Positions 17,670-63,732 of a stretch of 64,000 bases of DNA are shown in pieces. The translations under genes and the position numbers were made by a program. Source of the DNA: Coprinopsis marcescibilis (Eukaryota; Basidiomycota; Agaricomycetes; Agaricales; Psathyrellaceae); assembly GCA_004369085.1 (NCBI GenBank), contig ML210255.1, forward strand, positions 1-64,000, written 5' to 3'. Under the pieces are notes generated by a model. It made no database searches. It was not told where the DNA came from and saw nothing but the letters and a program-made list of their open reading frames with translations. How positions within the stretch are numbered: position 1 is the first letter of the stretch; every line of letters begins with the position of its first letter.

Positions 17670-19015
17670 TTATGCAAGGGTGATAGGGAAACCGGTGGAG
17701 GCGAGCAAGGTCTCCGAGCTGTCGAGTTTGCGAGGGCCATCCCCAACCTTGGTGTGGATAAGGCCCTTGACGGCACCGACTTCATGAACTAGAGCGACGT
17801 TGCGGTTGAAGCCCTCAGGGACCTTGGCCTGCGCGTTGATGTTGCCCGCGAGCTGCTCGCCGAATACGCCAAGGTTATCCTTGAATTCACCCTCCTTCTG
17901 GGGGAAGAAGGACACGATGAGTTGGATGATGTCCTTGATATCCTTATCCAATGTGTATATGACGGCGTTGGGTCCAGCATCATAGGTGTACGCCGCACGG
18001 TACCCCTTTCCTTGTTCCAAACTGATCCTGTTGAGCTCGACGATCACAGCGATAATCGCCCTGCTGACGTCATTCATGTAAAAGATGGGAGGCTCAGTGT
18101 CGAGCGCGACGGCATGGAAAGAGTTTGAATCGGCCATCGTGACGCGGGCAAAGGTGTCGAAATCGCGCTCCTGGATGGCCTTTTCCATGAGGGCCATGCG
18201 TTCGGGGACGACGTGTTTGATGCGGTGTTGGAGGAGGGTGGAGGTTTCGACTGTGCGTTGCATTCCGGAGGTGCTGCTGGTGCCCTTCTTGTCGTCGCTG
18301 ACGACGCAGATGAGGGCGTGCATATTGGGCCAGTGGGAAGCGGGGGCGACTTCGACGGCGAGGGAGTCGGAGCCGTCTGGGGAGGAGCCTTTGTTCCAGG
18401 CGACGAATCCGCCATAGAGAGAGCGGCAAGCTGAGCCTGAGCCTTGTCGGGCGATGAGGGAGAGTACCGAGGGGGAGACAAGCGGTGGGGTGAGGTTATA
18501 AAGGTGGGCCAGGGATGATACAAGTGCTGCGAAACCAGAAGCACTAGATGCGAGACCTGCAGCAGTGGGGAAGTTATTGTATGATGCGATGTGGACATAG
18601 TATTGCGAGATCTGCGCAGATGTTAGCTGGTGAAGGTGATCTCAATCGCCTTGGACGCACTTTGGGCTGGCTGGCGTCTTTCTCTTCGATGAGTTCCCTG
18701 CGAAGCTTCTTCACCTCCCTGATACAGGTCTCGAGCCTCGATCCTGGCTTGATTTCATCTTCTTTGCCGTTGAGCCATAGGCGATCTCGCTCAAACGAGG
18801 GATCGGCGCGAGACGTCGTCGTCGACCGCAGATGGTCCTGTGAGAGGGTCACAGACAGCGACGAGTTGGTGGGCAAGATCAGCTTGGTGTCGCGTTTGCC
18901 CCAGTATCTAGACCAATTTCACGTAAATCAGTTGGCCATCGTTGAGCACGATGCAGACGCACTTGATCACGGCGATGTTCACCGGTGCAGAAGAAGTTGC
19001 CTCGTATAGCGCCAT
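17670..19015 (-). CDS. MVD1: Diphosphomevalonate decarboxylase
   Basis: ATP-dependent decarboxylation of mevalonate 5-diphosphate to isopentenyl diphosphate (EC 4.1.1.33), the last step of the mevalonate pathway feeding ergosterol. A short first exon from the ATG at 19015 (MALYEATSSAPVNIAVIK) splices into YWGKRDTKLILPTNSSLSVT, the substrate-binding loop. Later blocks are SQYYVHIASYNNFPTAAGLA followed by SSASGFAALV (the GHMP phosphate-binding loop), then RQGSGSACRSLYGGFVAW, KKGTSSTSGMQRTVETS, MADSNSFHAVALDTEPPIFY and AAYTYDAGPNAVIYTL, ending TGFPITLA. Catalytic Asp and Ser/Lys positions of the family are present. Three exons; length about 400 residues, as in yeast Erg19 (396). Confidence 0.95.
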
Positions 19016-21897: not shown

Positions 21898-24180
21898 ATG
21901 GCGTTACAGTCTGAGCCCCGCGTGCCAGATCTGAGTAGCAAGGCGCCAGCTGGGGAGGCTGGAATCGCACTCGTCGAGGCAAATGAGCCTGATCCATGCG
22001 CTAACCCTGGTGCGTAGCGTCCTTACCTGGACCCTGGTACAATACCGACGAGTTACCGATGCTTAGACTCGGAAGCGAGTACTCAGGAAGGGTTTGAGGT
22101 CAATGGGGAACCTTCGAGCAGCACAATAGATGGAACCGAGGTTTCCAGCGACCTCGTGCCCAACAACCCAGAAACGCAAGGCATACCGCCTCCCCAACAG
22201 TCACACTCTCAAATACCGTACGATCTCATCGGAAACTGCAGAAAAGTCGAAGAATACGATGTCGCGGCGGGATGGAAGCTCAAAGACGCTATCGACGCCT
22301 TGCGGCCGCTTATGGAACACGATCCCAACGCACACGAGCCAGTCATGTCGAACCTCCTCCTGCGCTACGCCGCCCATTTCATTCTCATAGACCGGAACGC
22401 GGATGCGCTGGAGCCAGGCAATGAATCTGCATCCATTCTTCATCGGCTGGCGCAGAAGGATCCAGAACTCTACGAACCAAGCCTTGCCATGCTGCTCGAC
22501 AACCTGACGGTCTCCTACGAATCGCTTGGGGAACTAGAGGAAGCCATCCGGACAATTTCCAAGTCCATCGATGTTCGGAGAAGGCTGGCAAAGAGGGACC
22601 CGCAGGCGTTCCGACCGTTGTTGGCGAATTCGCTAGCCCAGCATGCCGTTCTCCTCTCGAATTTCGATAGAGTGATGGAGAGTTTTGTGCCGGGTCTTGA
22701 GGCGTTGGTTATACGCCGGGGACTGTCCAGGAGCTATCCTAGCAGCGAGTCTGCGGCAGCCGCCTATGCGACCTCGCTGGAGAGTGTAGCGTATGATCTC
22801 AGCTACTGTGGTCGTACGGAGGAGGTCAAGTTGTTGGAAACTCTCATCCTATATTCATGCAGGGGTATGGCGGCGAAGGAGCCAAAGGTCTTTGAACCTA
22901 CTCTCGCGCAATGTCTGGACCAGCGGGTTATGTCGCTGTCTGTAGCAGGACAATACTATGGTGCATTGGAGACTGGGAGGGAGGCGTTGGCTGTGCGGAG
23001 GAAACTTGCGGAGAAGGATGCCGAGAAGTACAAGGCCCTGTTGGCAGGCACGTTATATCAATATGCGCAGGACTTGGGGAAGGTGGGGAGGTATGAGGAT
23101 GCCCTGAAGTATGGTCGGGAAGCGCTGGATATACGACGGAGCTTGGCTGTCGGTGAACCGGGGAAACACGATGATCATATTGCATGGTCGCTTTACAACA
23201 TTGCCCAACACTTAGTTTATTCTCGAAGGGACGACGACGCTGTCGAGTATTACAAGGAAGCGGCCGAGATATGGCGGCGGATTACGCCAAAGATGGACCA
23301 GCAAGAACCACGAGAACAGGAACCAAAGGTCGCTGACAATGTGCTTGGAGGTCAGTCCGTCTTCAGACAGGCATTGGAAAGCTATGCGGTATGCTTGTCA
23401 AATGTCTGCAAGTACGAGGTCGCAGTGGCGGTTGGGCGGGAGGCGGTGGCTGTGTGCCGGGCGCTGGCTCAAGCGATGGTTGCACCGCAACATGAAGAGC
23501 TGCTGGCCATGCACCTGCATATGTTGGCATATGACCTCAATTGCTGTGGGAAGAACGAAGAGGCTGTCGATGCTGTCGCAGAAGCCATCGCGATCAGGCG
23601 GCGGCTCGCAGAGGGCAACGCGTTCAAGTACGAACATTCCCTCTCAAGCTCGCTCAACCAGCATGCGTGGTACTTGATGCATTGTCCTGGGAGGGAGCGA
23701 GAAGCATTGGAGCCGGCACAAGAGTCTGTCGCTATCTATCATCGACTACGTGAGGGCAATTGGCGGTGGCACAGATTCACAGAGGCCCTGGCGAATTCGA
23801 TGGATACTGTTTCGCAGGTGTTTTATAAGCTTGGGGAATACGAAGAGGCGATGAGATGGATCAAGGACGCAATACAAGTATTTGGGACACTAATGGATGC
23901 AGGATGGGCCAATATAGAGGACTATGATCATGTAGGGGGGGTTTTGAAGTACACTTATGCGAGAGTGCTTTGGAAGGTCGGGAGGGCGGAGGAAGCGGTC
24001 AAAGCGGGCGAGGGGGCAGTTGTAATTTACAGAAGGTTGGTCGAACGCTCACATGCAGGACGGTATGATCGTGATCTGGCGGACTGCGTTGCGTTGCTGG
24101 AAATGATGTCAAGCGATGAACAGGCGTACCTGTCCAAACCTCCTGCTTCATCAGAGCCTGTGGAGGGGGAAGTAAAGTGA
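21898..24180 (+). CDS. Tetratricopeptide-repeat protein, paralog 1
   Basis: Protein of about 730 residues. A short exon (MALQSEPRVPDLSSKAPAGE...) joins after a 57-nt intron (22010-22066) to one long exon. From about residue 75 on it is built of tandem TPR-like helix pairs of ~40-45 residues, e.g. EEAIRTISKSIDVRRRLAKR, GREALDIRRSLAVGEPGKHD and NEEAVDAVAEAIAIRRRLAE. The repeat core is [EA]-A-[IV]-x-[IV]-RR-x-LA-x-x-[DE]-P-x-x-[FY]-x-P-x-LA-x-[SC]-L, the kinesin-light-chain-like TPR type common in agaricomycetes. There it is often attached to STAND NTPase or CHAT domains, but no such domain is visible here. Probable scaffold or sensor; partner unknown. The C-terminus ends PASSEPVEGEVK. Start uncertain (21898 or 21841). 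Confidence 0.8.
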
Positions 24181-24531
24181 ATGGCTTCTGTGTCTCTTTC
24201 TCGGTCTTCAGATTGTACACTAGATGAATGTATGTATCATATTGTAAAAATATCAAAACGTATTCCCCGAAATGTTGCGTGCAATTGCCTTGGAGGCCCG
24301 GTCGCACTGTTAGTTCAGTAGCGGTGTCGCTGCCTTCAAGTCCTGCCGCCCAGTGGTGCCCTCAATCTTCTCTTCTTGTATTGCGTTCATCGCAAACATG
24401 TGCCACCTTCCCGATATCCCTCATTCTCGGAATTCTCCGGTGTCCTTACGCGACAGTGAAGTTTGGGTCTGTCTCGTTGAATTGTGCCACACTGCTCGAC
24501 CTCACTCTTTCAACTCATTGCGTGCTCACAT
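24181..24531. other. Spacer between TPR genes 1 and 2
   Basis: 351 bp with 3' and 5' untranslated sequence; no other feature seen. Confidence 0.4.
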
Positions 24532-25973
24532 ATGCAATTGGAGTTAACTCCTTTGGTCTCTGCTGGTCCAGGACCACACGGGACTTGGCATGATTGCGAC
24601 AGGAACTGTGAGTTTGGTTCTCAGGAATTATAGGCATATACACAGTGCTGTCTGACAGTTTCTTGTTCGTGTATACAGGCAGCCTTAGGGTCGAAAAAGC
24701 GTACGGAGGGTCTGATGAATCACTCGCATGGTCCCTGTATCAACATTTTGTCTCTTGCCGACATACTGGGGATAATCACCTCGCCTTTCTGATAGAAGCA
24801 ATTGGATTGTTTCGTCGGCTGGCAGCAGTTGAGGACCCTGTAGAATACGGACCACCTCTATCTGACCTTCTCAGCGTCTACGCACTCAATCTTTGCCATA
24901 TTAGAGGCTCTGATAACGCATTGGAGCCAGCAGGAGAAGCAGTGTCCATACAGCGTCGATTGGCAGAGCAGAACCCGAAGTACCAGCCCTCACTCGCATC
25001 GTCGCTCGACAATCTATCCTGTTACCTGGCCGAATGCGAAATGGTAGAGGACGCTGTTCAGCACTTGTCCGACGCCCTCACAATTCGCCGCAAGCTCCTT
25101 GTCAAACATCCCATAATGCAGGAGCCTTTGTACGCCAGATCGTTTCGCCATTACGCCTACTTCCTTTCTTTGATCAACCACGACGACAGTCTGGGCGCAT
25201 TGATCAACGCTGTCCACTTTGATCAGCGATTGGCAGAGGAGGACATGGCAGCGTACGGACATTATCTCGCGTGGTCGCTTTATCGTTTGGTGGCGGTTTA
25301 CGAGGAAAGAGGCAGGTACAACGATGGGTTGTCCCCGAGCCTCCGATGCATGGAGGTATGCAGGAAGCTGGTGGAGCTCGCTCAGGATGACGGTAACGAT
25401 GCAAAAGACCGCCTTGCACATGCGTTGGTCGTCCGCTCAAAAGTGTTGGATGGGATGGGTCTGTACAGGCTGGCACTCGAGCCGGTCATCGAGGCGATGC
25501 TGATTTTCCGAAAACTGGCAGCCAAGCAGCAAAGGTTTACGGCCTACTTTGCCAAGTCACTTTCAGCAGTGTCTGTGGTTCTAACTCATCATGGACGCGA
25601 TGACCCCGTGGTGGTGGTTATGGAAACCCTCGTCCTACGGTCCTGTCGCAGGCTATCTGCCACGGACCCAGACAGATATGAAGGTGATCTTGTCCAGTGC
25701 CTCCGCCAGCGTGTGGCTTCGCTTCTCCAAGAAGGCATGCATGCTGAGGCCGCAGAAACTGGACGGGCGGCACTTGGGATTTTACAAAGGCGGGCAGCGA
25801 AGGATCCTCACAGCCATGAGGTACCTTTATCGATTTTCCCTTACGGGTGTTCCAGGAGTTTGATGGAGCCGAACGAGGAAGAAGACGAGTTTGGCCTGAA
25901 AGCGGCGACTATTCACAGGCAGAACATAATCCCAGTAGTAAAGCTCCCACTACCTACGCTACTGGTCACATAA
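24532..25973 (+). CDS. Tetratricopeptide-repeat protein, paralog 2 (C-terminally truncated)
   Basis: The first exon 24532-24607 (MQLELTPLVSAGPGPHGTWH...) joins in phase 1 after a 71-nt intron to the exon starting at 24679. Repeats are as in paralogs 1 and 3 (EAVSIQRRLAEQNPKYQPSL, DALTIRRKLLVKHP, TLVLRSCRRLSATDPDRY). After ILQRRAAKDPHSHE the homology stops. The frame then continues through about 55 unrelated residues to a stop at 25971-25973, or a 36-nt GTACCT...TTCCAG stretch could be a further intron, giving another short tail. Either way about 300 residues of repeats present in the other two paralogs are missing. It could be a short functional scaffold or a gene truncated by deletion. Confidence 0.7.
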
Positions 25974-27505: not shown

Positions 27506-28659
27506 CGTTTGACCGCGTACGAGCAAATGAAACGTAATCTTGTTTACGACGAGATAAGACGGGTGGGTGAAGAGGTGATGGCAGTCGGAAAGAAGGACGG
27601 ACGCGCGCGCCGTCCAGAGTTTATTCCAACCCACGGTCTTTGCATTCCTCGCAGTTCACAATCACATTCAATAGAGCAAAAACATAATATCATTCATCAA
27701 TCAACTATCCAAATCCACAAAGTAGTAATTACAAAAAACCCAACCACACTCACGCCCTCAAGAACGATGTATATCAAGGAAATCGGATAACCCCTCCCAA
27801 GAATCCCTCCCAATTCAGAAAACAACAACTCCCCCAGCTACCACCACATACCCCCTAAACCCAGCGGAAAAGGCAGAACAGAGAGAATACCCAAAGAGGT
27901 CGCCGACAGCACAGTTAAGAAAAACATCCCCAGACGCAGCAAAGGTTAAAGCTACTGCTCGAACCCCAAAGGGGAGCAGCCGCCAACCCGGCTTCCGGAA
28001 AGTTCATTCTATGCGCATGTCGTCTCGCTTCTAGGCTCTCATCAGTCCAGCTCCCTCCCTAGGCGTCGAAAAGTACGCGATGGTGGTGGAAAGTGTCGTC
28101 GTCCCTTCGTTGGTCCGGTTTCCAGTCGGCGGATGGACGGTGAATGACGGTGATGATGTGTCGGGCGTGCCGCAGTCGACCAGACGGACAGTCGACTGCA
28201 CAAGTATGGTGGTGGTGGTACTACTCCTGTGGAAAGAAGAAGAAAAGACAAACAATAAAAAAGTCTATGCTCTGCAAAAAAAACCGAGACGAGAGATAAA
28301 TAGAGAGAGATGCCGATGCGATGAAGATGAGATGAGAAATGGAAAGAAACATATGACCGAGGCGAATTACGAAGATGATAAAACTATTGAGATAAAATAA
28401 ACGATGCCAGATGAGATGGAATGAAACTGATGTACATGTTCGTCGAGAACTTGAGCTGTATCCGTTTTGATTCGACCCGTTGGTAAAGAACCCCGATATT
28501 GTCGAACGTCGAATGCTGATTCGGTAGACCCTCTTGAGGCTCTCCCACACCTTTTTGCACACAGAACGATTGGTGCAATTCTACAAAGGGTGGGAAAACG
28601 GGTCTTGCGCGAAATGATGCGATGACAACCAACCACACACGAAGAGGCGAGCGAGATGT
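27506..28659. other. Spacer between RPR2 and the bZIP gene
   Basis: ~1.15 kb. It holds the RPR2 promoter and probably several hundred bases of bZIP 3' untranslated region. Short low-complexity frames only. Confidence 0.45.
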
Positions 28660-30101
28660 TTAGAAAACACCCGCCATGTTCGTGGTCGGCCACAGTCCAA
28701 AGTCCATGGGCATGTCCGTGGAGACGTTGCCCATGTCAAGACCGAGTTCGTTGGGGAACTGCAACATCGACATGTTCGATACGTCGAGCTGATCCAACAT
28801 CTGCTGCATCTCCTCAGAGGTGAGTGGAGCGACTGCAGAGTTGGTAGAGGGCGAGATCGGGTTCGTCCAGTCGAATCCAAAGTCAAGTCCAGTGTTGATA
28901 TTCATTCCATCTCCGGCGAGTCGTCCAGTGTCAATCTTCTTCGTCACTGCCTGTTGAGCTTCTTCCCCATCCTCCTGCCTCTTCCTCTTACCCAAACTCT
29001 CCCCTTGTCCCTCTGTCTTTACTTCCGTCGAGGAGGAAGCGGCCGACGCAGCAGTATAACGTGCTGCTTCTTGTACATTCCGGCCAGCAAGTTCGCTCGC
29101 TGAGAGACCGTTCGCCGTTGACGACGAGTCGTCGACAAGGATCTCGCGGAACAAGTCTTCCATCTTTGCATCATCGTCTGCTGCAACGTCATCGGTGTCG
29201 TCGATGAAGGTGTTGGCAGGAGAAGGGTACACACTGACGCCTTGGCTGCCTGAGAGGATGAGACCGCCCGCTGCAGGGCCATCGAGCTAGGCTCAAATGT
29301 CGCCACCCGTGCTGAGTGGCGAGCGGTAACATCATCAGACTGCTTTCGGTGAGAGGTGACCGGTGTTGATGGTGATGGAGAAGATGTTTCGAAAAAGTCG
29401 GAAGAATGCGAGGGGGCAGGGGAAGGGAAACCGGTGACGAAATTGGTAGCTGTCACGGTTGGTGGCGGTGTAACTGTTGATGAAGAGGAAACGGGAGAAG
29501 GTTTTGATGTGGAGATTTGGGCCTGCTGCGGTGGTGGGTTGGCAGGGGCAGTGGCGGTCGAGGTTGATGTTAGACCTGTTGGGAGACCTTGGGCGGCAAG
29601 GGCCTTGACGACAGCGTCCCAGCCCTGCTCCAGAGTCTTGATGCGTTGCTTGAGCTCCTCATTCTCGCGCTCCCTCTCTCGGTCCCGCGATATGCGATGG
29701 TCCTCCTCCTGACTGTGAATTGGGATTATTTGAGAGGGCAACAGGGCAGAAACGACGTTTGAGAGAACAGGAATGTGGAGACCTGGTGGTGGAGGTGCGA
29801 CAGCTGAAGGTGATGTCGATGGGAGGCCAGCGCGGAGACGCCTGTTCTCCTCCTCGAGCTCAGCTACCCGGCGTTCCAGCCATGAGAACTGGGCCTTTCG
29901 GCGGTCTCGACTGTGCTGAGCAGCGATGCGATTTCTGTGTGCTCGAGCCTCCTTGCGCTCTTCTGACGACATTTCTGAACGAGAACGCTTGCGAGGTGGT
30001 TGTCCTGATGAGCTCGTTGATGGAAGAGCTATTGAGGACGTTGAAGGCGATGGTGAGGGTGAATTGTAGGACGGTGATGGTGAATCCGTGACAAAAGACA
30101 T
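28660..30101 (-). CDS. HAC1: HAC1/XBP1-type bZIP factor of the unfolded protein response
   Basis: Nuclear transcription factor for ER-stress genes. The ATG at 30101 opens a Ser/Pro-rich N-terminus, then the basic region (residues ~36-75: PPRKRSRSEMSSEERKEAR, HRNRIAAQHSRDRRKAQFSW) and leucine zipper (LERRVAELEEENRRLRAGL). NRIAAQxSRDRRKAxF is the signature of basidiomycete Hac1-like factors (Cib1 of Ustilago, Hxl1 of Cryptococcus). A second heptad stretch lies near residues 145-180. The first frame runs to a stop at 29019 (360 aa, basic unrelated tail). A second frame, entered only by removing 29274-29311, encodes AGGLILSGSQGVSVYPSPAN and an acidic C-terminus (DDTDDVAADDDAKMEDLF ... GLWPTTNMAGVF) that looks like an activation domain. 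The joined product would be 467 aa. Unspliced and spliced mRNAs would therefore give different tails, as in HAC1 and XBP1. Splicing is inferred. Confidence 0.9.
29274..29311 (-). other. Candidate Ire1-spliced 38-nt unconventional intron
   Basis: On the minus strand the segment starts CACGGG and ends GCCCTG, so it is not GT-AG and is too short for the spliceosome. The 5' junction TCAG|CACG sits in a 7-nt loop CAGCACG closed by a 7-bp stem (CGCCACT pairing with GGTGGCG, one T-G wobble; 29301-29321). The 3' junction CTG|CAGC lies in CTGCAGC, the core of Ire1 substrates, in a weaker GCCC/GGGC hairpin. Removing 38 nt shifts the frame as needed to reach the acidic C-terminus: TCA-G joined to CA-GCG-GGC gives S-A-A-G. 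Confidence 0.72.
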
Positions 30102-33100
30102 AATAATGTGGCCTGTACAGGGGTTAGCATGAATACAAGACTTGAATGTGAAGACGTACGATTTGTTATAGTTCCTATGGTCGGAAGCAAAGAAAGATTG
30201 GAGGAAGAAGGAATGATATGGCGGAGGAGATACTGCGCGGGGCAGGACGGCTACGTGGAGGTCGTGAGGAAAGCAGAAACTGTGACGTGGAAGTTATATG
30301 CCCTGCATTCTGCCAACGTAAGCAACAAACACTCATCAATATTCGCTATCGGCACAGCCTCGGCGCAATCTCGTCGAGACAGAATTTGTCCAAGTCCCTT
30401 TCACATGCGGAGGATCGACAATTCTACCCACCCAAGCTCGGTTGAAGTTCGCAAATCCCAGGAGACTGTCTCTGTCTCCCCCACACTCCGGCACTTTTCA
30501 ATAATTTCCTCTTGTGATTGCCCTTCTCTCTCACAATCCAGGTTCTACCGACATCCCTCACGCTTTCTTCTATTCTCGGCTTGACCTATACCTCTGTCCG
30601 AGCGCTAGTCATGTTACTGGTATCTCCGAATTTTCCTCGCAACAGCCTGCCAAAATTCCGTATTCACTGTCTACCGTTTGCTTGCTGAAACGGCCTCGTC
30701 CCTTTCCTTGCCGTTGAGTACGGAGAGTAACCACCGACAACGGTCATCATCCACCGTTTCACTCAGAAATGAATGCGGCAGTTGACTGCTTACTAGCTGC
30801 CGTTGCACTCGAAACACAGTCCAACTCCATCAGTGAGTTTTGTTTTCAAATCTCTCGGGCTTCTCAACTATATCCTCCACTCCGCGTGGCTAACTGATCC
30901 CTGCGCTCGCTTCTATACACATCTTGTAATTTTCGTCTCGTACGCTTACTGTCGGAAGGCACATCCCGGCGTGTGCATCACCGATGCCTACCAGCGCCCC
31001 TCACGACAGTGCGGCCTAGCGCATTCAGGGCCAACGAGAGTACTACGCTTTACCTCACTCTCATTTCCCTCAGCACGGAAAGCCCAACGTCGAATACAAA
31101 CCTCGAACCGAGGTGATGGCAGAAACCAGACCCGGGATTCAACCTCGGAACCAACTCGAACCTATTCTGCTTCCACTCTCATCAACCAATGGCTGGAACC
31201 TTCCTAAAGCCCCCTCAGGGTAGTACGAACATACCCTATGACATGCACCTACCCAAAAGCCCCGGTACATACCCTTAAAACTCCGTCCCACAAACTATCT
31301 CGAACATGCGGGGAAAGCACAACTCGGATGTATCACAGATTCCCCGCACATCCAAGACCTTCGATGTGGATTCCCATGTATGTGTAGAGTTCTCATGTGT
31401 TCTCTCGCGTGCGACGTCGTTCTCAGACTTTTCCTCGGTTGAAAAGTCTACCGGTACCGGCTTGCTTCTTTCTGACTTCCGAACAACGAGACAAGGTTTT
31501 AGTGGCTCATTATTATATTGCAGTGCGGACTTGCTGCGGCTGTTTCGAGGCATCGGGTTAGACAAGCAACTCTGCATAGACTGATCCTTGTAGTGTGACT
31601 GGTGGTGAGCTTCGGGAAGTAGCGTATACTGGCATTTCGTGAGCTTGGGGTACTTTGAGCTCGAATCCAAACTCTGGTGAGCAAATGAAACAGAGCAAAG
31701 TAGCTCAAAGAATTCAACTCGTGCCGAAGTAGACTAGCCATGTCCTGTGAACACTATAGGAATTCATACGTACGGGTCTACGGAACAATACGCAAGCATC
31801 TCGTCAGCCAGCCCGAGCAGCTTTATAACGCAACTGGCACTAAATTAATCTACGCAGTCGTACTAAAGATCCCCTTCTTTCTCTCGTACCAAGTGTTCAA
31901 ATGTAGCCTTAGCGTGCACCAGCTGCTCCTTGTTCGATACATGCCAGCATCGATGGTTAGCACTACGATCCTTTACCTCTACTGTACATTCGATCCACGC
32001 AGCAGGGAGGAAAGGCTAAGCGTCAATTATGTTTTCTCGCTTTGCACTAATACTCGCCCTCTGGCCCTCCACTGAACGGGAGAATCGCATCCATTGGCCA
32101 ACCGTTCGCCAAGAACACAGTTAACAGTATCAGTCCATCGGAACTCTGTGGGTCCTTCCAATGGTACCGGATCGAGCCCATTCAGACGATACAAAAGTAC
32201 GAGGTGCGTGAGGTTCAGGCCGCGTCTTTTGCTCGTAAAATGGACGAAGCGAGTGGAAGATCCGAGCCGAGTGTACCACAGGGTACTACGCATGCAACCT
32301 TTCACAAAAGAAGCTGAATGTGGACTAAAGAATACGGCTAGTTTAGTGAGCGTCAAGAGGTGTCGTGCATCAAAGTCTTCGCCCGTCTATTAACTACGCG
32401 TGCGACTGTAACGTGCGCACATATATCTAGAGTCGATGTGCTTGAAAGAGCAGATATCGTCGACGTCGTCGACTACTCTCAGGTATAGTCTGCATTCACA
32501 ATCAATCATGAGTTCATACTACATAGCGAAGCCTAAAGCGCGCGTTCAAGATCACATCGTATAACTCGATCTTGAGGAGATGGTGTAAATTTTTGATGGG
32601 GAGATTAAGACGGACAAGCCACGGCCGCTGGCATCCTCTTTTGTTGGCAACCAATCTTATCTATCCTAGTACATACCTACACTCTTCATCTGGACTCAAA
32701 CGTGACCAAGGGGCTTATCCATGAGATCTGAGGAACGTAGACAATTTAAACTGTCAGCTGCGCCCAAAGTTTAGGACTTTTCCGACGAGTCGCGAACGAG
32801 TCACAACAGATGGTTATCACGCAGCTCACCTACATGATTAGCAATGACGTCCCAAATTTAGTGGTAGTAGATAAGTGCTAATCGCCATGAGTCAGCCCAG
32901 GTCAGAGAATAAGCACGCGCGGGGGGCTGCTATTACTTAGTACGCAAACCTTGAGTCATATACTTGGGCTACTGGCCACGCGACGAGGATCATAGCGGAT
33001 TAGAATGCCTGCTCGGACAGACATCGCAGCGCTAGAGTATTTAGGTGCAGCACGCCTGTCCGTACCTACAGCGAATACATCTAGAATAAGTTATTGTTGA

Positions 33101-35506
33101 CTCAGTCGTTCGGGACATCTTTGGGTAGGCTGCCGCCTGCGCGCCACGGTCGCGCAGCACGCAGTACTCAATCATTGGCGGAGCGACCAGAAGAGACATG
33201 GCGAAACGTCACCAATCTAAGCGACTTGCGTGCCCTCCAGCACAACAAGATAGCCTGTCAGACCGCAGCCAAATTGATAGAAGGATTGCGTAGAATGTTT
33301 TCTTGCTTTGATTCATTATGGGTATCAATACAGTATCTCGCGATAGACGCTCACAAGTCCCAATGTGCGAAAGATCAAGCTTGCGTGGGCTCCAGCATAA
33401 CAATATAGCTGTCAGGCTGCAGCCAGAAGGACTGCATAGAAGGTTTAATTGAGATTTCATGATTCAACCTATTAAGATTAGTATCGTCCAGTATTTCACG
33501 ACAGACGGTCACAAGACCCATGCAAAAGACCAGGCTGAAAGTTCATGTATAGTATGTATAGTATGTAAATACTCATTCCAGTAAGAATGTGGGAGGGAAA
33601 CAGATGAAAAACGCTCACTTTCGAGGGGCATACGACTTTTAAGTTTTGTCATTCCCGAACACGCGAACATTAAAGCTGTCGATTAATACTTAGTAAGTTA
33701 TCGCAACGATCATGATTACGGTTGTATTGTACCAGTGATAGCACCATTCTTACGGCGCATTTGGGGATGCATATTGTTCTGGGGCACTAGGGAGTGTAAC
33801 GAGGGCCCTGGGTAGCTGTGAGCATAAGCGCCCGACGGCAGATGTAAATCGCCGACCTTGAAAGGCGGCACGGTCACAGCACGCGCACAAGCTACAGGTC
33901 ATCCTATGTAACACCATATGCAAATTAGCCTCTACAAGTATATACCAAGTTCTTTTGATTTCCGTTGTTATCGACTACGACTTCCGAGTATACAGATTAA
34001 CACATAGGATGTAAGAAAAGGAGCCCAGGGAGTACGACAATATCGAATGAGGGAACGTAATATCAGTCAACGCGAAACTTCTTCCGACTTGGTTCAAAAG
34101 ATTATGATTAGGCTAATTTGATTTAATGGTGCGTAGATATCTTTTCCAATGTGTCGCATCGGTCTGAGACTGTTAGAGATGCCTCCGCCAAGTCAGTGGT
34201 CCAAGTGTTCCGACCAGTCGCATGCGCCAATCTGGTGGAGAACTTTGACGTAGCCGTTTACATCGAGAGCAATAAATGTCTTTGATATTCGGCTGATAAA
34301 CTCCTACTGTCATGAAAGCAAAAAGTCCGAGAATGCATACAGTATACATGTACGCCTTATCATGGTGTCATGCCACCGTTAAGGCCAACACCAGTAATAT
34401 TATTGAAAGATTACCAAACACCGCCTTACCTTCAAAGCATTCGGATACGTCTTGTGCTGTAAATTCCCACTTTCACTCCACTTCTTTTTTTTCAAACCTT
34501 TGCAGAATTTTGTCACTTCTATCACATTGATCACCGCTCAGCGGGCATTTCGGGATGGGGCGAGGGTCCACGGGCGTTTAAAGCCTAGAACATGGCGCAT
34601 ATATTTCTCGGAGTAAACGTCATTGGGTGACATTAGATAGGGCATCTGGACACCCAATTTGGAGGACTCTCGCTTGACAGATATGGCAGCATGATTTGAA
34701 AAGAACAAGGCTGTGCATGGGTGGCCCTGAGGCGGTGGATATTTCCACCCGGACAATTCCCGAGTAGCGGAATACTAGTATTTCGCATAAATTTGCTGGG
34801 TATACGGCCACGAGGTCTCAAAGGCTACTATTCTTTTGTACGGTTTACGTCGCGCCCCTTGGTAGACTTTGGGTTGGCGCGATCATTTATCGGAGCTTTA
34901 CATCTTTCTCTCCACAACCTACCACATCCTGGGAGTGCACCGTCAGACCCGGCTTGGGACTACTAACCTAGGGCAATGTATCCCTCTCAAACCCAGCGAG
35001 AAGTCCGTCAGAGGACCAGAGTCTTGCGAAAGCAGGTGTCTTCTAGTTGACTCACAGCCTCGGCTCTCCTATTCTGGGCGGCGGGCGCCTATTGCGTCAG
35101 CGTCAGTGCCGTTTAGGCATCTCCAAAAGGGGATATCACAGTCCCGCAATACCCCTCGAGGAGCCTCGAGGCTTGACTCAAACCGACAAGAACGCATGAC
35201 TCGTTCAAGCGTGGGTTGACGGAGGCTATAAAAACAAACATTTGTCTGCCGTTCCCAACAGCCTGTAAACAGTGCCATCTGTTTCCAAGTTATCACCTGC
35301 AGGGGTGGCGGCGTATAAATACCTGGCTCGCGCTCACGTTATCGTCTCACAAATCTTGCCTCCTCTTGTTACCGACTCCACCCGACCTCCCAGTCCAGCA
35401 TCAAACATTCTCCGAGTCATTAACTAGGACTTGACGCTCGCCGCTTATCAACTGCTAACATCTCGACTGCTCGGGCGTTTATCTCGGTCTCGGTCTCGTT
35501 CCCGCT
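30102..35506. other. Gene-poor region
   Basis: 5.4 kb with no coherent gene. The first ~600 bp are pyrimidine-rich and likely contain the bZIP promoter and leader. The remainder has only short frames with no recognisable domain on either strand. The only structure seen is the imperfect tandem repeat at 33225-33530. It may be decayed transposon sequence. Confidence 0.5.
33225..33530 (+). repeat. Imperfect two-copy tandem repeat, ~155-bp unit
   Basis: Unit A starts CTTGCGTGCCCTCCAGCA at 33225 and unit B starts CTTGCGTGGGCTCCAGCA at 33380. Both continue with an ACAA-ATAG-CTGTCAG-GCAGCC series and end with a GA-AGACG-TCACAAG block (about 33345 and 33500). Many substitutions separate them, so the duplication is old. 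No coding content. Confidence 0.7.
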
Positions 35507-36239
35507 ATGTCTTGGAGTCCCTGGTATCCTCAAAATGGCGGTGGCGGCTTCGTGCCAAATCATGCCCCCCCAGTACACGGCTTCATTCCGCCGCATAATC
35601 AACCATACCCTCAATGGGGAGGGCAGGCCTACACAGACGCCTACGGAGGTCAACCACCGAGTACGCTCCATTCACTTATCCAAATGGTTCCGTCCGGAGC
35701 TCACCACGCCCACTAATACAGTTGCTGCCCAATACTCCGCAAAATTCCCCACCCTCCACCCAATACTCGCCAACGACACCACCAAGCTCCGGTTTGACCT
35801 CAAACGGAATCCGCAATCAGAGATCCTGGCCTCGACTTACTACTCAAACCGTAATCTCCCCGCCAAAGCCACGCCAACCAACAAATTCCGGATAATCAGC
35901 AAGAGCTTTCCATGGTCGATTGATATTAGTCCGCCAGGGGTGAACGTGACTGTAGGGATGGTGTGGGACGCCCTCTACGCCTGCCTTCAAGAGCCTATTC
36001 AAGACTCGGAATGGGGGCTGATCATCCTGGATAAGAAGGCCAAGGAAAGGATTGAAGCTGCTGCCAAGAAGAGGACTGAGGCTGATCCGTCGTCGGACAA
36101 ACGAATCAAGAGGATCGACTATCTGGGAGATGTGACGTTGTTCAAAGGATTGGAAAAGGACGACGATTATGCAAAGACGAGATTAATGCCAACCACACAG
36201 GCGTGGCATGATACATGGCTCGTCAAACTGACTTCGTAA
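35507..36239 (+). CDS. DUF6699 domain protein
   Basis: The first exon (MSWSPWYPQNGGGGFVPNHA, then PPHNQPYPQWGGQAYTD) is a Pro/Gly-rich leader. It ends at GGQPP plus one base, and a 61-nt GTACGC...TACAG intron (35661-35721) leads to IAAQYSAKFPTLHPILAND. The domain follows: LRFDLKRNP, then FRIISKSFPWSIDISPPGVN, VTVGMVWDALYACLQEPIQD, RIKRIDYLGDVTLFKGLEKD and W-HDTWLVKL near the end. This is the DUF6699 pattern (HPxL...W-x-I-x-V...VTVxDVxxALxxxL...RxDxLxGxTxFxGL...WxLxL), found mainly in agaricomycetes and of unknown function. The length of ~223 residues is typical. Reading straight through without the intron would give a different, implausible N-terminus. Confidence 0.85.
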
Positions 36240-61361: not shown

Positions 61362-63732
61362 ATGCAGTATCGCGGAGTGCACGAAACGACCTTGCAGGTT
61401 ACCCCCTTTGCTGGGCGGGGACCTCGAGACAATGGTCCAGCCGGTTATTGCGACGGACGCTGTGAGTTCTCATCTTTTGTGAGTTGGTCTTCTTATCTGT
61501 TCTAAACTAATTGGTTCCACCTCAGGCACGAGCAGACTGGAATTGCAGGACAGTGGGGTGGGAGATATCACTTCGGACGTGGATGAAGAAAGTCGAGGAT
61601 GGGCCCTGTATGATCACCTCTCCAATGCTCACCCTATCCTGGATCGGAATGAAATCGCGTCTGTCGCTGCAGAGGCAGTTCGGATATTTCTTCGGCTGGC
61701 AGACAAGGACCCTACAACATATGAACCGCCGCTATCCGATGTACTCAACCGTTATGCCATTTACTGCTCGGCACTCGGGGAAGACGATGAAGCTCTGAGG
61801 ATTGGGGGACAGGCGGTTGATATCGGTCGTCGTTTGATGTCCAGGAACTCCCACAACCTCAAACTCTCCGGCCATTTATCCTCTTTGCTCTACAATCTCG
61901 CGCGCTACTTTGCGCAATTACAGCGTTTTCAAGAAGCCCTCCCGCCTATAGCAGAGGCATTCAGAGTTCTCCATCACCTGGCCAACAAAGACCCCGGATA
62001 CGAGCCACGTTTGGCAGATTCCACGCACCACTATGCAATCTATCTGTTTCACGCCAAGGAATACCAAAGAGCAATGGTGCACGCACACGAAGCCGTTGAA
62101 ATTCGTTCCCGCCTTGCAGGACAAGATCCTGCAAACTTTGAACACCACCTTGCATGGTCGCTACTCCGCCTTTCAGAGTGTTATTACTCTCTCGAACGCT
62201 ACGACGAGGCCCTCACGATCGTAGCTCAATCCATAGAGCTGCAAAGGCACTTAATAAGCCACAGCTTCGAGCCGGTTGCGTTTAAGCGTCTCCTTGCGGA
62301 CTCGCTGATCCACCACGCGTGTTGCCTGTCCGAGTCAAACATGAAATCGAATGCTCTTGGATCGGGAACGGAGGCGATGGTCATCCTCCGGGGTCTCGCA
62401 GCCTTATGGCCAAAGGAGTTCACTCGTCCCTACGTCGCCTCCATAACCAGATTGGCTTATGACCTCAGCTTTTGTGGTCGCTCAGCAGGGGTTGAGCTAC
62501 TGGAAAGCCTTTTAATATTTGCGTGTCGCAGATTGTCAAAACAGGATCCCGACGTACACGACCCCGCCCTTGCACATTGCCTTCACCAGCGTGCTCTTTC
62601 TCTATCGGCGAGAGGGTGGCACCACGATGCCCTTGAGCCGCAGGAGGAAGCGATACGCATACGCCAGCGATTCGCCAGGGTGAATCCCGCTGCTTACGAG
62701 CCCTTCCTCGCCGACTCACTCCATCAATACGCCCTCGACCTATCCCGAGTTGCGAGGTACAGCGACGCAGTTGAACCGGCGACCCGAGCTCTCGAAATTC
62801 GCATCCGACTTGCGTCGGTCGACATGGCCAAATACGAGGACGACCTTGCGTGGTCGTACTATAACCTTGCGTGCTACCTCAGCTCTTGCGACCGCTACGC
62901 AGAGGCGATTCCTCATTCAGAAGGTGTTGTTGAAATCCGACGCCAGATCGTGCAACGAAATCCACAGGACGAGACAGCTCTCTCATCGCTGCGGAACGCG
63001 ATCGAGAACTATGGGATGTACCTTTCTCAGATTGGGAGGTACAATGACGCGGTCGAGCCGGAGAAGGAGGCTGTTGACATTTGCCGCACGTTGGTCGCAT
63101 TGGATCCGGACCAGTTTGAGGGGACTCTTGCCACGACACTCTACATGCTGGCATTTGACCTCAATTACTGTGATCGAAACGAGGAGGCAGCAGACGCTGT
63201 GAAGGAAGCGATCGATATTCGTCGGCGTCTGGTGGCGAAAGACCGATATAGGTACATTGAGCACCTTGCCGACTCGCTCAACCAATATGCATGGTACCTC
63301 ATCCATTGCCCAAAACGTGTACATCAGGCATTCGGACCTGCGCACGAATCCGTTGCGATCTATCGAGAGATGCTGGAGAAGTTTCCCGATACTAATCGTC
63401 TAGAAGATTTGGCCAACAGTTTGGACACGGAGGCTCAGTCACTTTTCTTCCAGGAGAGGTACGAGGAGGCCTTGCCGCTGATAGAGGAGGCTCTTGAGAT
63501 ATACCCAAAGATGGTGAGCGGCGGTAATATCGAGAACTTTGATCATGTTGGGAGTGCGTTGTACCAGACGTATGGCAGGGTGCTCTGGAAATTGGGGAGG
63601 GAAGCTGAAGCAGTTGAACCACTGCGGGAGGCAGTCGTTATTTATTGTCGGCTGATCAAGGTGTCGCATCCTGGGCGGTATGAACGCCGGTTGGAAGACT
63701 GTGTTACCTTGTTGGAGGCTTTGACGAGTTGA
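61362..63732 (+). CDS. Tetratricopeptide-repeat protein, paralog 3
   Basis: Exon 1 61362-61461 (MQYRGVHETTLQVTPFAGRG...) joins in phase 1 after a 64-nt intron (61462-61525) to one long exon ending at 63732; total ~768 residues. From about residue 60 it consists of kinesin-light-chain-like TPR units, e.g. RIGGQAVDIGRRLMSRNS, HAHEAVEIRSRLAGQDPANF, ATRALEIRIRLASVDMAKYE, VKEAIDIRRRLVAKDRYRYI and LIEEALEIYPKM. The exon structure and the GPAGYCDGRC segment of exon 1 parallel paralog 2 (GPHGTWHDCDRNC), and the C-terminal half parallels paralog 1 (LNQYAWYLIHCP versus LNQHAWYLMHCP; TYGRVLWKLGREAEAVEP versus TYARVLWKVGRAEEAVKA). No NTPase, CHAT or kinase domain is attached. Role unknown; likely protein-interaction scaffold. 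Confidence 0.85.

Follow-up and report, generated by a model that had tools for sequence, protein, structure and literature searches.

A candidate Ire1-spliced gene of the HAC1/XBP1/HXL1 type in Coprinopsis marcescibilis, with a predicted 38-nt intron and off-consensus hairpin loops

Described systems and the C. marcescibilis locus

Two basidiomycete regulators of the unfolded protein response (UPR) offer the nearest comparisons for the locus described here: HXL1 of Cryptococcus neoformans, which has a 56-nt unconventional intron downstream of its bZIP region and an ordinary intron upstream (PMC3154848), and Cib1 of Ustilago maydis, a Hac1-type regulator (PMC4836707). The corresponding intron of S. 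cerevisiae HAC1 is 252 nt (PMC3154848). Genes of this type can be hard to find in basidiomycetes, since the account of the Pycnoporus cinnabarinus genome reports no clear HAC1 ortholog although Ire1 and Trl1 are present (PMC4101180), and HXL1 is described as having emerged only from BLAST searches of low stringency (PMC3154848). In the open-licence literature no title among the matches listed describes such an intron in a mushroom-forming fungus, and an earlier prediction in a related species is possible. A broad survey of HAC1/XBP1-type introns was reportedly made by Hooks and Griffiths-Jones in 2011.

The 5' loop of S. cerevisiae HAC1 carries CAG↓C (arrows mark the cut). The S. cerevisiae enzyme is reported to require a 7-nt loop with C1, G3 and G6, along with a G that opens the 3' leg (PMC549064), and to cut CNG↓(C/A)NGN when loops are tested singly (PMC8104961); a published site pattern is YCNGNNGNG (PMC549064). 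The Ire1 of S. pombe accepts other loops than the S. cerevisiae rule (PMC6037481).

Here we describe a minus-strand bZIP gene in a 64 kb stretch of the C. marcescibilis genome (the window) which, with a probability of roughly 0.9, is a HAC1/XBP1/HXL1-type gene whose mRNA would serve as an Ire1-spliced UPR switch through the loss of a 38-nt insert (Table 1). The kind of gene is ordinary, and its placement as an added member of the Ire1-spliced HAC1/XBP1/HXL1 group, with predicted off-consensus loops, is well supported at the sequence level. With gene, insert and junction defined, the UPR switch of this fungus becomes directly testable, and the off-consensus loops offer a way to probe the stringency of Ire1 recognition beyond S. 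cerevisiae.

Table 1. Positions of the features of the candidate bZIP gene in the window
Feature	Position	Strand	Basis
Exon 1, coding part, 790 nt, bZIP at residues 46-91	29312..30101	-	translation, Pfam
Predicted Ire1 intron, 38 nt	29274..29311	-	removal gives 467 codons; frame switch in codon usage
Exon 2, coding part and stop, 203-aa acidic tail	28660..29273	-	translation, codon scores
Alternative basic tail (96 aa) and stop, unspliced form	29019..29311	-	translation
5' hairpin, loop CAG↓CACG, 8-9 bp stem	29299..29322	-	stem count; fold -15.4 kcal/mol, z -3.05, 200 shuffles
3' hairpin, CUG↓CAGC core	29262..29283	-	fold -12.6 kcal/mol, z -2.26, 200 shuffles
Predicted ordinary spliceosomal leader intron, 47 nt, GTACGT...TGCTAAC...ACAG	30113..30159	-	sequence only
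Two UPRE-like sites upstream of the bZIP gene, TACGTGG at 30252 and TGACGTGG at 30283; promoter or leader	30252..30290	+	pattern match

Reading frames and hairpins at the 38-nt insert

From its ATG at 30101 the bZIP frame reads through 360 codons to a stop that ends at 29019. Omission of the 38 nt (CACGGG...GCCCTG) fuses it to the acidic frame, giving 467 codons and a stop that ends at 28660. An earlier reading of this DNA, made from sequence only, had proposed that the two frames are out of register and are joined by exactly this removal, and translation confirmed both the coordinates and the lengths. The two predicted forms have 264 residues in common and then diverge in charge, the tail of the spliced form having 33 D+E against 12 K+R and that of the unspliced form 1 D+E against 18 K+R. 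A hydrophobic stretch like that of XBP1u was sought in the unspliced tail, where the best 19-aa hydropathy (0.84) was not convincing.

Exon 1 matches Pfam bZIP_2 (E 1.8e-10) and bZIP_1 (E 6.6e-10), both over the cut-off, and the C-terminal acidic frame has no Pfam match. Against solved structures, the bZIP region was closest to CREB and C/EBP, with E values no better than 0.009, and XBP1 was not among the best matches. At least seven bZIP matches were found genome-wide, and among those seven only this gene has NRxAAQxSRDR, which we take to be an XBP1/HAC1-like signature. A search of the assembly for a second copy of the gene found none, and a scan with exon 1 of bacterial/archaeal and viral contigs returned 46 and 3 pattern stretches, respectively, none of them a relative. 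The bZIP domain upstream of the insert, together with the frame change to a new C-terminus, gives this gene the organization of HAC1/XBP1/HXL1 mRNAs.

Behind the short zipper and past a proline-rich loop, the protein has another charged and probably coiled stretch, RERERENEELKQRIKTLEQGWDAVVKAL (29560-29760, minus strand). Elsewhere in the window, the bZIP gene is flanked on both sides by large open frames rich in tetratricopeptide repeats, which may belong to related genes (22018-25970 and 61483-63729, plus strand), and there are genes for mevalonate diphosphate decarboxylase (17673-18641, minus strand; MDD_C, E 1.2e-70) and a DUF6699-domain protein (35424-36236, plus strand; E 2.5e-25). A promoter/terminator scan of 28400-28700 returned nothing, its models being bacterial and of no bearing on a fungus.

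The position of the frame change was also approached by codon usage, with a log-odds score trained on 4478 codons from 11 further long ORFs in the window and applied in 30-codon segments, a scan that uses no hairpin information. The bZIP frame scored best in five successive segments, from 29411-29321 to 29291-29201, and the acidic frame, which is open only from 29286 onward, in 18 of 18 successive segments from 29261-29171 to 28751-28661; its scores reached 11.9, and the final one, at -1.3, was negative yet still the highest. Within exon 1 another frame outscored the bZIP frame in 12 segments (five N-terminal, one at 29831-29741 and six within 29591-29351). The stop preceding the acidic frame was scored -5, which pulls that frame down in every segment containing it. 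Codon usage independently places the frame change at the 38-nt insert, with a switch point precise to no better than some tens of bases because the stop penalty contributes to it.

The 5' border of the insert lies in a hairpin, CGCCACU-CAGCACG-GGUGGCG, that with one outer pair has eight contiguous pairs, one of them G-U, and a 7-nt loop; the loop size given in the sequence-only reading stands, and its 7-bp stem is one pair too short. In the minimum-energy fold, C1 of the loop pairs with G7, which extends the stem to 9 bp and leaves a 5-nt loop. The CTGCAGC core that the same reading had placed at the 3' border is present, beginning 38 nt past the start of the 5' loop, and it is predicted to fold as a 6-nt loop (UGCAGC) on a broken stem of 4 bp, a mismatch and 3 bp; forced into a 7-nt loop it retains a stem of 2 bp only. 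By sequence the exact cut is ambiguous, with G-C-A repeated at both borders, and by folding each border has a predicted hairpin whose loop contains the cut position.

Set against the S. cerevisiae rule, the 5' loop has C1, G3, the right size and the flanking G but lacks G6, having C6 and a G at position 7, and the C noted there earlier is a true deviation from the yeast rule. The letters of the 3' site, CUG↓CAGC, fit the rule, and its predicted departure lies in the favoured 6-nt loop. Each site is thus predicted to depart from one requirement of S. cerevisiae Ire1.

Among 33 CNGC places in 30101-28600, the 5' hairpin alone has a 7-nt loop with a stem longer than 5 bp. Across the window, with both strands counted, no other CNGC 7-nt loop has a stem of at least 7 bp, and those with stems of at least 6 bp number three. 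A 146-nt region folds at -57.4 kcal/mol, compared with -47.09 +/- 3.84 in 200 shuffles (z -2.68, 2 of 200 as good), into a predicted three-hairpin junction closed by exon-exon pairing. When synonymous codons were resampled with the unspliced protein kept, 0.87% of 1500 sequences folded as well (z -2.47). A double motif, consisting of a CNGC loop with a stem of at least 8 bp and a CNGCNG in the right frame, was defined post hoc, after the site had been seen. Dinucleotide shuffling of a 200-nt zone produced it 3 times in 20000, shuffling of the full 1502-nt transcript 4 times in 2000, and resampling of synonymous codons over 150 nt 22 times in 50000. Rfam gave no valid match in 28600-30200, where five matches fell far below the gathering scores (best E 1.5).

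Other explanations of the two frames fit these observations less well. Ire1 might cut at other borders, and an intron of 41 nt (CAG↓CGGG, three bases on, last base 29271) or of 131 nt (3' site CAG↓CAGA at 29181) would also be in frame, giving 466 and 436 codons, respectively. Drawn with 7 nt, the loop at 29183 even has a stem of 5 bp, compared with 2 bp for CTGCAGC. We nevertheless consider these borders unlikely, as CUG↓CAGC with its neighbours matches the pattern YCNGNNGNG (PMC549064; comparison made here) and CAG↓CGGG does not, and the 131-nt version would delete 29261-29181, a stretch in which the scores of the acidic frame are already high. An ordinary spliceosomal intron joining the frames is less probable again. 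The claim that nearby GT-AG pairs are too short or in the wrong frame was too strong, since 12 such pairs, spanning 44-170 nt, bring the two frames into register. A fused frame of at least 420 codons is obtained with 47 GT/GC-AG pairs; 40 of these were inspected, the 12 being those that begin with GT, and the sort order places no GT among the other seven. However, none of the 12 has a GTRNGT donor, and in all of them CTRAY lies at least 48 nt from the acceptor, in contrast to the predicted leader intron. With neither a donor consensus nor a close branch site among the enumerated pairs, we rejected this explanation, and the earlier conclusion that they include no credible spliceosomal intron stands.

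A small assembly error interrupting one continuous frame, with no splicing at all, is compatible with the sequence alone and with the single copy in the assembly; it would leave unexplained why two Ire1-type hairpins coincide with the break, and we rate it as improbable as the spliceosomal intron. Least probable of all is that the hairpins arose by chance, that only the 360-aa bZIP protein is made and that the downstream frame is unused. The 4 of 2000 transcript shuffles with the double motif and the open unspliced tail speak for chance, and against it stands the stronger coding signal of the downstream frame. That openness, which had also been considered as a sign of selection and was rejected as one, is unremarkable, being matched by 27-31% of synonymous reshuffles.

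Ire1, tRNA ligase and candidate targets in the genome

A search for the Ire1 RNase family identified one gene, with two exons (contig C4, 359800-365800), in which luminal, membrane and kinase stretches could also be recognized by eye. The RNase piece matches Pfam Ribonuc_2-5A at E 1.3e-40, and the luminal piece matches a Pfam propeller family only, under the cut-off. The RNase aligns at E about 1e-30 to solved IRE1 chains, including 3fbv, the S. cerevisiae structure (PMC8104961), and we counted yeast residue numbers from H1061 and Y1059 as in that paper. At yeast positions 1043, 1056, 1057 and 1061 the residues are Y, R, N and H, the same as in yeast. We take these four to have a catalytic role. 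The C. marcescibilis enzyme has E at yeast K992 and K at yeast Y1059, the latter read across a predicted intron.

D/E at 992 with K/R at 1059 is described as the S. pombe-like pattern, found in 175 of 230 orthologs, human included, and S. cerevisiae Ire1 becomes relaxed when both residues are changed accordingly (PMC8104961, Li et al.). On HAC1-type loops the relaxed mutant still needed G6, cutting CNG↓NNGN, and on the BIP1 loop G↓C sufficed (PMC8104961). The E/K interface makes cleavage of the imperfect loops plausible without proving it and, given this interface, the enzyme may have a role in mRNA decay as well. A tentative extension, in our view somewhat less likely than not, is that the Ire1 rule has shifted in this lineage, with C1/G7 in place of C1/G6 at the 5' site (a 5-nt loop AGCAC, cut AG↓C) and a 6-nt loop at the 3' site, both cut by an Ire1 relaxed through its S. 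pombe-like dimer interface (E992/K1059 in yeast numbering). If so, one enzyme would precisely splice non-standard loops and possibly also carry out mRNA decay. The genome codes for the joining enzyme as well as for Ire1, with ligase, kinase and phosphodiesterase domains all present at the fungal tRNA ligase locus.

Both UPRE-like sites of the bZIP gene lie less than 190 nt ahead of its start codon. The two strands of the window together contain two occurrences of TGACGTGG, four of TACGTGG and five of TGACGTG[GTA]. Sites of the TGACGTG/TACGTGG type are presumably Hac1/Xbp1-type sites. The KAR2 gene (contig C199), whose product has a signal peptide and an HDEL end, has TGACGTGG at about 375 nt and TGACGTGT (reverse strand) at about 84 nt upstream of its ATG; UPRE2 is given as CTACGTGTCT (PMC4836707). 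TGACGTG[GTA] was absent from the ERO1 locus and, among six other Hsp70 loci, present in three and absent from three. TACGTG is not specific, because it also lies upstream of other Hsp70 genes (loci L046 and L049). The UPRE-like sites lend weak support to a UPR role for the bZIP gene. In the KAR2 promoter, three ACGTG-type motifs, TCACGTGG, GACACGTC and TTGACACGTCAA, lie close together (about 1505-1560 within 42000-46800 of contig C199), and this promoter is a good candidate for a UPR reporter.

Proposed switch and comparison with known systems

This genome contains the two frames, the hairpins and the contrasting tails, together with Ire1, the tRNA ligase and a KAR2 gene preceded by UPRE-like sites. 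The frame change, the hairpin cores, the tails, the Ire1 RNase, the tRNA ligase and the UPRE-like sites argue for the proposal, already made in the sequence-only reading, that the bZIP gene is the UPR switch of this fungus. In the mechanism that we infer, the mRNA of unstressed cells would keep the 38-nt insert and encode the 360-aa bZIP protein with its short basic tail. Unfolded proteins would activate Ire1 in the ER membrane, and its RNase would cleave each of the two loops on the 3' side of a G (CAG↓CACG and CUG↓CAGC). The tRNA ligase would then join the exons, shifting the reading frame onto the 203-aa acidic tail, an expected activation domain. The outcome would be a 467-aa UPR activator, whose expression would depend on stress and which may regulate its own gene.

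Compared with S. cerevisiae HAC1, the locus has a similar 5' hairpin, with a CAG↓C loop and a G that opens the 3' leg, in a genome with both Ire1 and tRNA ligase, but its intron is much shorter, position 6 is not G, and its Ire1 has E/K rather than K/Y at yeast 992/1059. Pairing between intron and leader, as in the translational block of yeast HAC1, was sought and rejected: the longest run was 9, compared with a shuffle mean of 9.4, and so showed no excess over shuffles. The basic region of the bZIP domain resembles, we assume, that of XBP1. Further likenesses to metazoan XBP1 are the CUG↓CAG core of the 3' site (the human motif in PMC6037481) and the shortness of the intron. However, at 38 nt it is longer than the introns of XBP1 and of some fungi, for which 19-29 nt is given (PMC3154848), the 5' loop here is without G6 and the 3' loop is no clean 7-mer.

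Among basidiomycetes, U. maydis Cib1 is likewise a Hac1-type regulator, a likeness drawn by description only (PMC4836707). C. neoformans HXL1, also compared by description only, differs in the length of its unconventional intron (56 nt rather than 38) and in that the ordinary intron is here predicted in the leader, but like the C. marcescibilis gene it is a basidiomycete bZIP gene with CAG at the borders and a frame change to a new C-terminus (PMC3154848).
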